A stretch of DNA of 64,000 nucleotides from Gimesia alba (GTDB lineage: Bacteria > Planctomycetota > Planctomycetia > Planctomycetales > Planctomycetaceae), in the NCBI RefSeq assembly GCF_007744675.1, contig NZ_CP036269.1, positions 3,141,546 to 3,205,545 on the forward strand. Direction: 5' to 3'. The first letter of the stretch is position 1. Every line of letters begins with the position of its first letter. Below, in pieces: positions 49,700-53,927 of this stretch. The notes beneath the pieces were generated by a model. It was not told the origin of the DNA and ran no database searches. It was given only the letters and a program-made list of their open reading frames with translations. The position numbers and the translations under genes are program-made.

Positions 49700-50806
49700 A
49701 TGGTAATCTGGTTATTGAAGACGTTTTCTCCCCTGCTGGAACAACTCGAAGTTCTCTCGACTGGTGATTCTCGTGTCTTTCTGACCGCGCGAATTGCATT
49801 GGCCAGTCTCTCTTCTTTTTTGATTGCCTTACTGCTGGGCCCGCTGGCGATTCGCTGGTTGGAAAAACGGTTCCGTGAGCGCGTTGATAGTGCTTCGGAA
49901 AAGTTGAATGAAATCCACGCTTCAAAGAATGCCACTCCGACGATGGGGGGCATCTTTATCATCGGCTCGATTTTGATTTCGACGTTACTCTGGGCAGATC
50001 TTGCGAATCGTTATGTTCAACTCGGGATATTGACAGCCGCTGGCTTTGCACTGCTGGGGGCTTATGATGACTGGATCAAGCTCAGTACCACTCAGAATGG
50101 ATTAAAACCACGCCAGAAGCTGGTGGTGCAAATTCTGTTTTCCGGTTTCGTGGGTACGCTGCTCTATTTCAGTAACACCAGCTTGAATTCAGGGCTGGAT
50201 TTGATCATGCCGGTCACCCGCCTGACTTTTTATCTGGGCATCTTTTTTATTCCCTGGGCGATCGTTGTCATGACAGGGAGTTCCAATGCTGTCAATTTAA
50301 CAGATGGTTTGGATGGGCTGGCCAGTGGTTGCATGGTGTTTGCCGGCTCTGCCTTTGCCGGATTGACTTATCTGGCGGGGCATAAAGTGATGGCCGAGTA
50401 TTTGCAGGTGCCCTATATTCCGGGGGCCGGCGAGTTGAGTATTCTCTTGGGAGCGGCGGTGGGAGCGGTGCTGGGATTCTTGTGGTTCAATTGCTATCCG
50501 GCTCAAGTCTTCATGGGGGACACGGGCTCACTGCCTCTGGGGGCACTACTTGGTTTTGCGGCACTGGTGATTCGTCAGGAAGCATTATTGGTGATTGCTG
50601 GTGGGGTGTTCGTTGTCGAAACACTCAGTGTGATCATGCAAGTATTCTGGTTTCGGCGTACGGGAAACCGTCTGATTGCCTGTAGTCCATTGCACAACCA
50701 TTATTTATTCAAAGGTCAGCATGAAATGAAAATTGTCGTTCGTTTCTGGATCTGTTCTGCCTTGCTGGCCATCATTGCGATCGCCAGCCTGAAGATCGCA
50801 ACCTGA
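49700..50806 (+). CDS. mraY: Phospho-N-acetylmuramoyl-pentapeptide-transferase
   Basis: 368 residues with about ten membrane helices. The signature NATPTMGGIFIIGSILIST near 76-94, then GAYDDWIKLSTTQNGLKPRQ with the catalytic DD near 115, GSSNAVNLTDGLDGLASGCM with the NxxNLTDGLDGL motif, and VFMGDTGSLPLGALLGF are all MraY motifs; SPLHNHYLFKGQHEMKIVVR near the C-terminus holds the conserved His cluster. It transfers phospho-MurNAc-pentapeptide to undecaprenyl phosphate, making lipid I in the membrane. The start has only a weak SD; the first helix begins after about 25 residues. Confidence 0.97.
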   Translation: MVIWLLKTFSPLLEQLEVLSTGDSRVFLTARIALASLSSFLIALLLGPLAIRWLEKRFRERVDSASEKLNEIHASKNATPTMGGIFIIGSILISTLLWADLANRYVQLGILTAAGFALLGAYDDWIKLSTTQNGLKPRQKLVVQILFSGFVGTLLYFSNTSLNSGLDLIMPVTRLTFYLGIFFIPWAIVVMTGSSNAVNLTDGLDGLASGCMVFAGSAFAGLTYLAGHKVMAEYLQVPYIPGAGELSILLGAAVGAVLGFLWFNCYPAQVFMGDTGSLPLGALLGFAALVIRQEALLVIAGGVFVVETLSVIMQVFWFRRTGNRLIACSPLHNHYLFKGQHEMKIVVRFWICSALLAIIAIASLKIAT

Positions 50807-51049: not shown

Positions 51050-52687
51050 ATGAAGCCGGCTTCGCTTTTACCACAATCACAACCGGACCATGACCGCAGT
51101 CTGTTCATTTCGATGGCGTGTGCGCTGTTGGGGATCGGAGTGTTAATGGTTCATAGTGCCAGCATCACCTCCTGGCCAACGGAATTCGAACAGGTTTATT
51201 TATCAAAGCATTTGACGTTTCTGGCGATTGCAGTCACCGTGGCTTCTATTGCTTCATATATGCCTGCCCGGTTCTGGTATGACCGTGCCCCCCTGCTCTT
51301 TTGGGGAACTGTTGTTTTACTCATATTGGTTCTGATTCCCGGGATCGGTACGCGCGTGAATGGTGCGCAACGCTGGTTGAGGTTCGGGTCGGTTTCGCTC
51401 CAGCCATCCGAGTTGGCAAAAATTGCACTCCCTCTTCTCACGGTTCGGCTGATGTTGCAACGTCGTCGGTCTTTGAGACACTGGTTCAAAGGGACGATTC
51501 CTTTATTGATTCCACTGGCAATTGTGATCCCACTCGTTTTAAAACAGCCTGACCTGGGGACGTCGCTGTTTCTGGTTGGGGGAGTTGCGATTGCCCTGTT
51601 TTTGGGAGGTTGGCCGCTTCGAAACTTCATCGTCGGGCTGCTTTGTGCGATTCCGGCTTTAGGGATGCTGGTGGCATTGAGACCTTATCAGTTAAAGCGA
51701 ATCAGCGGGTTTCTTGATACCTGGACTGACTGGCAATCGGCTCCCTATCAGCTGAAGCAGTCGCTAATGGCGTTAGGCACAGGTGGTATTTCTGGATCTG
51801 GGCTGGGCAAAGGAGCGCAAAAATTAAGTTTCTTGCCAGAAGCGAATACTGATTTTGTGTTTTCGGTGGCAGGCGAAGAGCTGGGCTTAATTGGCACTCT
51901 TGGAATTGTGGGGCTCTGGCTGGGACTGTTTCTGGCAGGCTTCAATATTATTCGCTCACAGAATCAGAAGTCATATGCCTATGTTGTCGGGTTTACATTG
52001 TTAATGCAGTTGGTACTGCAGGCGATTATCAATGTTGCCGTGGTGACAGCGATGGTGCCCCCTAAAGGAATTTCGCACCCTCTCATCAGCTATGGTGGTA
52101 CGAATTTGATGGTGAGCCTGCTCTCTCTGGGGATCATTGTCAGTTTGACTCGGTCACCAGCGGATGCAGCATTGTTGATCGACCCGGGGCAGGAAGAAGA
52201 GGAGCCGTTACCTGATCCGCAAGCGGTGATGGAAACGGATCTCGTTCACTCAGAACCAGAAACGGATGAAGAGTACGAGGATGAAGAGTACGAAGATGAA
52301 GAGTACGAAGATGAAGAGTGCGAAGATGAAGAGTGCGAAGATGAAGAGTGCGAAGATGAAGAGTGCGAATATGAAGAGTGCGAATATGAAGAGTGCGAAG
52401 ATGAAGAGTACGAGGATGAAGAGTGCGAGGATGAAGAGTGCGAGGATGAAGAGTACGAAGATGAAGAGTACGAAGATGAAGAGTGCGAGGATGAAGAGTG
52501 CGAGGATGAAGAGTGCGAGGATGAAGAGTGCGAGGATGAAGAGTGCGAGGATGAAGAGTGCGAGGATGAAGAGTGCGAGGATGAAGAGTGCGAGGATGAA
52601 GAGTGCGAAGATGAAGAGTGCGAAGATGAAGAGTACGAGGATGAAGAGTACGAAGATGAAGAGTACGAAGATGAAGAGAAGAATTGA
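51050..52687 (+). CDS. ftsW: FtsW/RodA/SpoVE-family glycosyltransferase with acidic repeat tail
   Basis: 545 residues. The first ~375 form a SEDS-family membrane protein with about ten helices: the segment GIGVLMVHSASITSWPT, RFGSVSLQPSELAKIALPLL, VLKQPDLGTSLFLVGGVAIA, PYQLKQSLMALGTGGISGSG, LGKGAQKLSFLPEANTDFVF with the catalytic-pocket region, and PPKGISHPLISYGGTNLMV near the end of the core. SEDS proteins polymerise lipid II. What is unusual is the tail: from about residue 405 the protein consists of roughly 28 units of five residues of the type E-[CY]-E-D-E, giving an extremely acidic and Cys/Tyr-rich extension with nothing else but a final KN. Context next to mraY and murG supports FtsW over RodA, yet no division genes follow. 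Confidence 0.93.
   Translation: MKPASLLPQSQPDHDRSLFISMACALLGIGVLMVHSASITSWPTEFEQVYLSKHLTFLAIAVTVASIASYMPARFWYDRAPLLFWGTVVLLILVLIPGIGTRVNGAQRWLRFGSVSLQPSELAKIALPLLTVRLMLQRRRSLRHWFKGTIPLLIPLAIVIPLVLKQPDLGTSLFLVGGVAIALFLGGWPLRNFIVGLLCAIPALGMLVALRPYQLKRISGFLDTWTDWQSAPYQLKQSLMALGTGGISGSGLGKGAQKLSFLPEANTDFVFSVAGEELGLIGTLGIVGLWLGLFLAGFNIIRSQNQKSYAYVVGFTLLMQLVLQAIINVAVVTAMVPPKGISHPLISYGGTNLMVSLLSLGIIVSLTRSPADAALLIDPGQEEEEPLPDPQAVMETDLVHSEPETDEEYEDEEYEDEEYEDEECEDEECEDEECEDEECEYEECEYEECEDEEYEDEECEDEECEDEEYEDEEYEDEECEDEECEDEECEDEECEDEECEDEECEDEECEDEECEDEECEDEECEDEEYEDEEYEDEEYEDEEKN
52268..52680 (+). repeat. 15-bp tandem repeat encoding the acidic FtsW tail
   Basis: About 27 to 28 head-to-tail copies of a 15-bp unit, consensus GAAGAGTGCGAGGAT. 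Copies differ almost only by transitions: TGC/TAC (Cys/Tyr), GAG/GAA and one GAT/TAT pair. Ten adjacent copies in the right half are of the Cys type and nearly identical, while the flanks are Tyr type. The unit length is a multiple of three, so gain or loss of copies keeps the frame. Confidence 0.95.
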
Positions 52688-52775
52688 CTGGGAATTTGAG
52701 AAGAGTTCCCCTATGCTGGACCCTTTGATTGGTGTTTAAAGGAAGAAGTCACTCCACGCGTGATTCCAGGGTACA

Positions 52776-53927
52776 ATGACCGAGTCGATTCGTAGAAATA
52801 AAACGATTGTTTTTGCAGGAGGCGGGACAGGAGGTCATCTGCTTCCCGGGATTGCTGTCGCCGAGCAGTTGGTGACTCTCGGTGAATTTCAGACGATATT
52901 TGTAGGCTCTAGCCGCATTGTCGAGCAGCAAATTATTGAAAACTCAGGGTATCAGCATCTCAGTTTGCCATCGGCATCAACCAGCGATTTAAAGCGTGCT
53001 CCTTTTCGATTTCTCTGGAGAAACAGCCGCGCATTTTTTCAGGCTCTTCGTTTTTTAAGAACAGAATCTCCAGCTGTAGTCATTGGCCTGGGAGGTTTTG
53101 CCAGCGTACCAGTCATTCTCGCTGCTTCCTGGTTAAAAATTCCAATTGTTTTATTAGAGCAGAATATCATTCCAGGGAGAGCAAATCAGTTTTTATGCGG
53201 GCGCGCTTCTCTGGTCTGTATCTCTTTTTGGGAAACACAGTTCAAAGGCAGACCAAGTGGAGAACAAAACGGTCCGCCGCGTATTGTGTTGACAGGAAAT
53301 CCCGTCAGGAAGCAGATTCTTGAAGCAGGGATACAGAGGGAGTCTGCAGAGAAGTCTGACGAAACTTTGATCCTGGTTTTAGGAGGAAGTCAGGGGGCGA
53401 CTGCTGTCAATGACGCTGTGCTCTGCTTGCTGGAAAGAAGTGGAGACGATTTGCCAAAGCCGTTACATGTAGTGCATCAGACGGGAGAAGCGGGATATGA
53501 GAGTGCTAAAGATGGCTATGGGCGGTTGAAAAAACGCGGGTCTAAACTGAGGGTGACAGTGCAACCTTTTTTTGATGACCTGACTGAGTGGTACACACGT
53601 GCGGATCTGATCATATCCCGGGCAGGAGCCACGACGCTCGCTGAAATTGCCTGTCTCGGAATCCCCACAATCCTGATTCCGTTTCCGAATTCAATGAGAG
53701 ATCATCAGTTAATCAATGCCCGTTATTATGTCGAACGGGGCGCAGCATTACTGGTTGAACAGGCACCTGAGCCCGAAGTCACCGCTGAGTTACTCACAAA
53801 AGCGGTCTTGGATTTGCTGAATACTGAGGAGCAACGAAGTGGTATGTCCCAGAAAGTCCATGAACTTGCCTTCCCGCATGCGGCCCGTCGGGTTGCTGAG
53901 GAACTGTCTGGGTTGATCCTGGGGTGA
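52776..53927 (+). CDS. murG: UDP-N-acetylglucosamine--N-acetylmuramyl-(pentapeptide) pyrophosphoryl-undecaprenol GlcNAc transferase
   Basis: 383 residues. The N-terminal glycine-rich loop IVFAGGGTGGHLLPGIAVAE is at about 10-29, followed by VVIGLGGFASVPVILAASW (second G loop) and LLEQNIIPGRANQFLC. The C-terminal domain has ILVLGGSQGATAVNDAV, VVHQTGEAGYE and the donor site LIISRAGATTLAEIACLGIP near 284-303, then FPNSMRDHQLINARYY. This GT28 enzyme makes lipid II on the inner face of the membrane. It starts 88 bases after the ftsW stop with AGGG just upstream and closes the cluster. Confidence 0.97.
   Translation: MTESIRRNKTIVFAGGGTGGHLLPGIAVAEQLVTLGEFQTIFVGSSRIVEQQIIENSGYQHLSLPSASTSDLKRAPFRFLWRNSRAFFQALRFLRTESPAVVIGLGGFASVPVILAASWLKIPIVLLEQNIIPGRANQFLCGRASLVCISFWETQFKGRPSGEQNGPPRIVLTGNPVRKQILEAGIQRESAEKSDETLILVLGGSQGATAVNDAVLCLLERSGDDLPKPLHVVHQTGEAGYESAKDGYGRLKKRGSKLRVTVQPFFDDLTEWYTRADLIISRAGATTLAEIACLGIPTILIPFPNSMRDHQLINARYYVERGAALLVEQAPEPEVTAELLTKAVLDLLNTEEQRSGMSQKVHELAFPHAARRVAEELSGLILG

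Follow-up and report, generated by a model that had tools for sequence, protein, structure and literature searches.

Charge pairing through the cytoplasmic tail of FtsW has reportedly been described in Mycobacterium, where the FtsW tail is said to act as the basic partner and FtsZ as the acidic partner. The FtsW of Gimesia resembles that system in the idea of charge pairing via a cytoplasmic tail, but differs from it in that the tail is acidic rather than basic and that no FtsZ was detected in Gimesia. Of the structurally characterized versions of the protein, the solved FtsW has ten helices in its cryo-EM structure, and a cytoplasmic C-terminus is implied by an FtsW-FtsI fusion construct with a cytoplasmic linker, as set out in the relevant parts of PMC7614612. 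The FtsW proteins of Planctopirus and Escherichia coli are given as 406 aa and 414 aa in length, respectively, in the sections of PMC6952346 that deal with the gene; the same sections describe the Planctopirus ftsW as dispensable, its deletion leaving the growth rate without change and making the cells rounder. The DNA translocase FtsK is a further point of reference, since the pertinent passages of PMC12283558 name FtsW among the interaction partners of the N-terminal domain and linker of E. coli FtsK, and describe ftsK as the essential gene of the dcw group in Planctopirus. No report of an FtsW tail of the kind described below was found in the literature listings searched.

The ftsW locus of Gimesia and its gene neighborhood

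The genome in question, a single contig of 7.77 Mb, belongs to Gimesia (Planctomycetota). Within the window, i.e. the entire 64-kb stretch of DNA that was analysed, an ORF of 545 aa (51050-52687) contains an in-frame pentapeptide array and is flanked by genes of cell-wall synthesis. The features of this region are as follows:

49700..50806, + strand: mraY, the upstream neighbor (TIGR00445, over cut-off)
51050..52153, + strand: FtsW core (SEDS domain), residues 1-368, ending ...IVSLTR (TIGR02614, PDB FtsW 8bh1/25hr, PF01098)
52154..52273, + strand: non-repetitive linker, residues 369-408 (40 aa), ending D-E-E (sequence reading)
52274..52678, + strand: 27 in-frame X-E-D-E-E units, X being Cys in 18 and Tyr in 9 (unit reading; Tandem Repeats Finder)
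52679..52687, + strand: C-terminal K-N followed by the stop TGA (sequence reading)
52688..52718, + strand: conserved element CTGGGA-N17-YTATGCTG between ftsW and murG, constant in spacing (all 15 Gimesia junctions that were readable)
52776..53927, + strand: murG, the downstream neighbor (TIGR01133, over cut-off)

On the strength of its sequence the ORF is an FtsW, in agreement with a preceding sequence-only reading that had assigned it to this family. Its score against the NCBIfam model TIGR02614 lies just over the cut-off (339.4 bits versus 337.5), whereas it falls below the cut-off in the rival models rodA_shape (255.1 versus 336.7) and spoVE (248.6 versus 448.8). The Pfam model PF01098 returns 296.5 bits, and residues 5-365 can be aligned with the solved FtsW membrane domain (PDB: 8bh1/25hr) with an E-value of about 1e-61. 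The TDF motif (T267, D268, F269), the aspartate of which we take to be the catalytic residue of SEDS polymerases, is invariant in all 13 aligned sequences. The setting is that of a dcw-type cluster, with mraY, ftsW and murG adjacent and murE and murF, named by eye, further upstream; two transpeptidase-domain genes, FtsI-like and PBP2-like (likewise named by eye), are present in the same genome. The Gimesia protein is like known FtsW proteins in the core sequence, the alignment up to residue 365, the invariant TDF motif and the mraY-ftsW-murG order, and is set apart from them by its last 177 residues.

Organization and composition of the acidic tail

The sequence-only reading had described a long acidic tail of about 28 pentapeptide copies, ten consecutive ones being nearly identical, and had placed the end of the core near residue 400. 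The first two of these statements are upheld: Tandem Repeats Finder reports a single array in the window (52265-52678, period 15, 27.6 copies, 96% matches, 0% indels), which comprises 27 whole units, and of the ten units in the near-identical run eight are the same throughout, the other two showing a single synonymous difference. The end of the core, by contrast, had to be corrected to near residue 368, the array being reached only after the 40-residue non-repetitive linker, in which a short I-D motif, in many cases L-I-D-P or a variant of it, recurs across the genus. In two of the units of the window Tyr stands in place of Asp. The 177 residues past the core contain 120 Asp/Glu, and the tail as a whole has 18 Cys and 11 Tyr; the net charge of such tails goes up to -119. 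In the AlphaFold2 model, which is poor in its entirety (mean 46.9), residues 374-545 show no secondary structure and have block-mean pLDDT values of about 29-48.

The level of acidity is without parallel in the part of the genome sampled. Among 316 other non-overlapping ORFs of 100 aa or more, drawn from 20 stretches of 20 kb (400 kb) of the same genome, none contains 40% or more Asp+Glu in any 60 aa, and in the sample and the window taken together at least 21 acidic residues in 40 are reached by one ORF in 361, namely ftsW itself. The RodA-like protein (the second SEDS protein) and the FtsI-like and PBP2-like proteins of this genome have no such acidic stretch. A protein search of the genome with the tail, an insensitive one that also missed ftsK, returned 11 further matches, none of them in an ORF with at least 16 Asp/Glu in 40 aa, and these are therefore best regarded as composition noise. 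Given that no sampled ORF comes near its acidity and that the tail is found on all 14 FtsW genes recovered from Gimesia (see below), the array is not a product of chance or a local artefact. The same genome contains another 15-bp coding array, SSSAP, of about 36.6 copies in an unrelated ORF of 573 aa (L099:16847-17395, G000:C1), so that arrays of this kind are not peculiar to ftsW.

Phyletic distribution and variation in length

The FtsW core was recovered in 14 of the 17 Gimesia genomes searched, and every one of these 14 genes carries an acidic repeat array. The 12 arrays readable to the stop have 3 to 27 regular units, and in all of them the frame is open through to non-repeat C-terminal residues common to near relatives. 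Two short contigs (L005 and L006) end inside the array, the murG side of the break carrying array sequence too. In one genome with no FtsW match (G011), a contig begins inside a (GATGAA)n tract, encoding (DE)n, which ends just before murG (L064:1-56, G011:C42) and has neither Cys nor Tyr in its 18 visible residues. An acidic repeat is accordingly present in 15 of the 17 genomes; the other two cannot be judged, as the murG contig of G006 starts 39 bases before murG, with nothing to read, and no murG was found in G015. The draft genome G011 also contains a second, distant SEDS-murG pair (G011:C429; L066, L152) with 30% and 35% identity, possibly a contamination.

Outside the genus, none of 66 FtsW loci has an acidic array, their tails extending at most 75 aa past the core with at most 12 Asp+Glu; this count includes at least five cases of the same gene fetched twice, and its last 20 loci were chosen mainly for long open frames. 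One of these loci (L196), when re-read, proved to have a short, non-acidic tail. In one other genus of the family FtsW ends in a basic, Pro-rich tail of approximately 75 aa (L180, L183; genomes G347, G402). Relatives devoid of the tail, which the sequence-only reading had named as an observation that would count against it, are seen outside the genus, as just described, and not inside it, where all 14 FtsW proteins carry the array. The tail is outside the ordinary for FtsW and is found on every Gimesia FtsW recovered.

The number of units is highly variable even between close relatives, the array growing or shrinking in frame by multiples of 15 bp. The 27 units of the window compare with 15 in a relative with 96% identity in the core, which bears out a recent change in length as surmised earlier from the near-identical copies, and neighbors on the FtsW-core tree differ in the same way (27/15; 4/14/8/14; 3/14/13; 22/25). 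The array is present in both deep clades of Gimesia.

Conservation of charge and probable selection on the tail

To assess the pattern of conservation, the 14 arrays were read in phase, block by block, starting at the first unit and going on to where the ORF ends, which gave 192 blocks. Acidic residues occupy 756 of the 768 EDEE positions; six of the 12 exceptions lie in a C-terminal D-L-E-S-E flank of three species, and the others are two Tyr, two Ala and two Gly. The X position is occupied by Cys (82), Tyr (50), Ser (42), Phe (7), Pro (6), Leu (1), His (1) and, in the D-L-E-S-E flank, Asp (3), but never by Lys or Arg. The dominant residue at this position follows the clades of the core tree, with a Pro-rich array in L007, Ser-rich arrays in L006 and in L015/L016, and Cys or Tyr elsewhere. 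Cys is missing from four of the 14 arrays (L006, L007, L015, L016) and Tyr from three (L008, L010, L014); the short visible part of L005 also has no Tyr, although one occurs across the contig break. At the DNA level, synonymous variation is seen in codon two (GAA/GAG 98/76) and codon three (GAT/GAC 151/19) of the unit, implying that acidity has been held while the DNA changes. Three other synonymous sites are nearly fixed, the fourth codon being GAA in 187 of 187 Glu and the fifth GAG in 182 of 189, and the X codon ending in C in 185 of 192 blocks.

A tail selected for charge should keep its acidity constant while its length and spacer vary, and this is what is seen: the complete arrays range from 3 to 27 regular units, and seven different neutral residues are used as X. 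Selection on negative charge, with the length and the spacer residue left nearly free, is thus well supported by the comparison of these sequences. It does leave the near-fixed synonymous sites unexplained; shared ancestry together with homogenisation might be enough to account for them, or a constraint at the DNA level may be at work.

The explanation that we put forward, tentatively and at somewhat less than even confidence, is that selection has maintained the tail, a polyanion in the cytoplasm, for its negative charge rather than for its Cys or Tyr, and that it acts on basic partners as an electrostatic tether or brush tolerant of changes in length, a Lys/Arg cluster in FtsK (described below) being one candidate. 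The tail would have arisen on the Gimesia stem and would be disordered; on the cytoplasmic side of the polymerase it would engage basic partners through many weak contacts. Copy number would shift by slippage or unequal crossing-over, with selection removing those variants in which the frame or the charge is broken. No great length is required, as the arrays of two species are limited to 3 or 4 regular units, and the tail is perhaps of little weight for growth, given the dispensability of ftsW in Planctopirus.

The stronger of the two main competitors, the other being the exclusion of DNA (see below), is that the array is a tolerated minisatellite: slippage keeps regenerating it, and a dispensable protein bears it at its end without harm. 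The very labile copy number and the SSSAP array in an unrelated ORF of the same genome are in line with this view, as is the unchanged growth rate that the cited part of PMC6952346 reports for the Planctopirus ftsW deletion. However, the acidic positions have remained acidic in the very blocks in which X drifts, in each of the 12 arrays with a readable stop the frame remains open to the shared C-terminal residues, the array has been kept in both deep clades, and a different acidic repeat, (DE)n, is found in G011. We consider a merely tolerated array to be fairly unlikely.

Acidic and basic segments of FtsK and the search for partners

A DNA search of the genome with the array gives matches at two places, one in ftsW and the other in ftsK. 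In the FtsK proteins of Gimesia (L200-L216), the linker after the membrane part has 21-26 Asp/Glu in 40 aa in all 16 full-length rows, as against 11-19 by the same measure in six other genera of the family. Likewise, the C-terminal 25 aa contain 12-13 Asp/Glu in 17 of 17 Gimesia rows, with an EEYEEE[FL]V end, compared with 5-6 in the six other genera. The Gimesia linker additionally contains a cluster of Lys/Arg, adjoining FtsK's own acidic block, for which the best net charge in 15 aa is +7 or +8 in 16 of 16 rows and +6 in the cut seventeenth; in the six other genera the corresponding values are +3 to +6. The sequences had already been seen when the stretches for these charge counts were picked, and a single lineage makes up the contrast. 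For this reason, and in view of the existence of further acidic proteins in Gimesia, a link between FtsK and FtsW is to be taken as a lead only.

In other planctomycete families the acidic parts of FtsK reach 32 of 40 residues in L224 and L226 and 26 of 40 in L227, with 10-12 in the other four. The first two (from G049 and G040) have very acidic Glu/Tyr C-terminal tails, and in their genomes neither a SEDS gene nor a transpeptidase-domain gene was found, which indicates that the acidic feature of FtsK does not need FtsW. The FtsK/SpoIIIE proteins of Gimesia and some other Planctomycetia share with the FtsW tail acidic tracts in which Tyr is spaced among Glu, but these are irregular Glu/Tyr-rich stretches rather than a 15-bp tandem array, and the Gimesia FtsK adds the adjoining basic cluster.

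In other Gimesia genomes the array also matched further acidic proteins, namely a small Asp-rich protein in G002, G003, G004, G007 and G011 and a 507-aa protein in G013. The small Asp-rich protein (SLDDDEENIGF..., L242-L245, L248-L255) is present in eight of the 12 Gimesia genomes searched and was not found in the window's own genome at an E-value of 0.001. Along with ScpB-like and PilT-like proteins of other genera, named by eye, it represents a group of acidic Planctomycetia proteins with Asp/Glu-rich low-complexity stretches at the C-terminus, which differ from the FtsW tail in having no pentapeptide array.

Among other potential partners, FtsZ was found in none of 25 genomes, 16 of them of Gimesia, with the control detected in 13 of 14; the description of this lineage as one without FtsZ is hence borne out in the sense of one without detectable FtsZ, and FtsZ is unlikely as the partner of the tail. 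The FtsI-like and PBP2-like proteins were rejected as sources of a basic partner, as their N-terminal parts are short and have a net charge of -3 to +3 in the Gimesia rows with a membrane helix, a weak negative in that several ORF starts, set at the first Met, are misplaced.

We favor the reading, also raised in the sequence-only reading, that the tail binds basic proteins, while the identity of the partner is one that we infer. The candidate would be the Lys/Arg cluster in the FtsK linker, which is strongest in Gimesia and lies beside FtsK's own acidic block, although the cluster may instead pair with that block. A long disordered polyanion could also keep DNA and acidic lipids at a distance, or bind divalent metal. 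In a specific version of the former, the tail would serve as a DNA-repelling brush that keeps the nucleoid off the closing bud neck, filling in the absence of FtsZ the role that nucleoid occlusion has in other bacteria, with the acidic parts of FtsK acting likewise. A net charge of up to -119, the presence of acidic parts in a DNA translocase and the lack of detected FtsZ would all suit such a role, but they have to be weighed against the persistence of tails of 3 or 4 regular units in two species and the fact that FtsK must bind DNA; on balance, we find exclusion of the nucleoid improbable.

The overlapping frame and the ftsW-murG intergenic element

A further alternative is that the array acts as DNA or RNA, for instance in the expression of the downstream murG, or as an overlapping +1 frame. 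The +1 frame is an ORF of 157 aa (52266-52739) with a basic MKSAK repeat, its openness inside the array being a consequence of the E/D codons, and beyond the ftsW stop it runs on to a stop codon whose position is the same in 14 of 15 junctions. However, codon periodicity is missing from the part of it past the array (pairwise difference 0.365/0.383/0.375 at positions 1/2/3), and in L014 an earlier stop interrupts it. An overlapping gene was rejected on these grounds, what is conserved there being a DNA element.

This element, CTGGGA-N17-YTATGCTG, occurs in all 15 Gimesia junctions that were readable (L003, L004, L007-L016, L062-L064; 52688-52718 in the window), its spacing being the same in each. 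At a constant distance after it come [GC]TTT and TAA, TAG or TGA in an overlapping reading. A scan of 464 kb recovered one perfect copy (52688-52718) and 1, 13 and 131 copies with one, two and three mismatches, respectively, versus 2, 11 and 101 in one Markov control. In the window alone there is one perfect copy, and the matches with up to three mismatches number 10, against 4.74 expected, with 2 of 100 shuffles reaching 10; there may thus be a slight excess of weak matches in the window. Of the loci L017-L045, L035 (Gimesia) has a perfect copy and L038 a one-mismatch copy about 5 kb from ftsW, the rest having at least two mismatches. A common promoter motif was rejected, there being no other perfect copy in the 464 kb and mismatch counts near those of the Markov control. 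The element region has no match to the sigma-70 consensus, and there is no match to Rfam. The simplest guess is that the element is a murG-specific promoter. As to the array itself, the near fixation of three synonymous sites of the unit while two vary would fit a function as DNA or RNA; in view of the missing codon periodicity, the earlier stop in L014 and the lack of an Rfam match, we regard this alternative as very improbable.

Finally, the metal- or redox-sensing and tyrosine phosphorylation roles that the sequence-only reading had entertained, despite the 18 Cys and 11 Tyr of the window's tail and the acidic surroundings of the latter, retain hardly any credibility, as the conserved cysteine expected of a thiol-based tail is wanting (Cys 0 in L006, L007, L015 and L016), Tyr is absent from three arrays, Ser, Pro or Phe take their places, the (DE)n of G011 has neither, and the maintenance of charge in itself weighs against redox, phosphorylation and thiol-metal roles. 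It is unlikely that the tail has been kept for thiol or tyrosine chemistry; a site for Ca or Mg formed by carboxylates only may exist in the tail.

Implications for planctomycete division

The cytoplasmic charged blocks of FtsW and FtsK are absent or weaker in the other genera of the family, and this raises a more far-reaching, though doubtful, proposition, namely that the division machinery of Gimesia has been rewired electrostatically. The FtsW polyanion would dock on the basic cluster of FtsK (or exclude DNA from the bud neck), and the copy number of the 15-bp unit would be a fast-evolving dial of contact strength.

The tail represents a clean case of a coding minisatellite in which length and spacer change fast while net charge is held. 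For the study of planctomycete division in the absence of FtsZ, the charged FtsW tail, taken together with the FtsK blocks, offers a concrete handle, comprising two proteins, defined segments and a natural copy-number series in 15 genomes.
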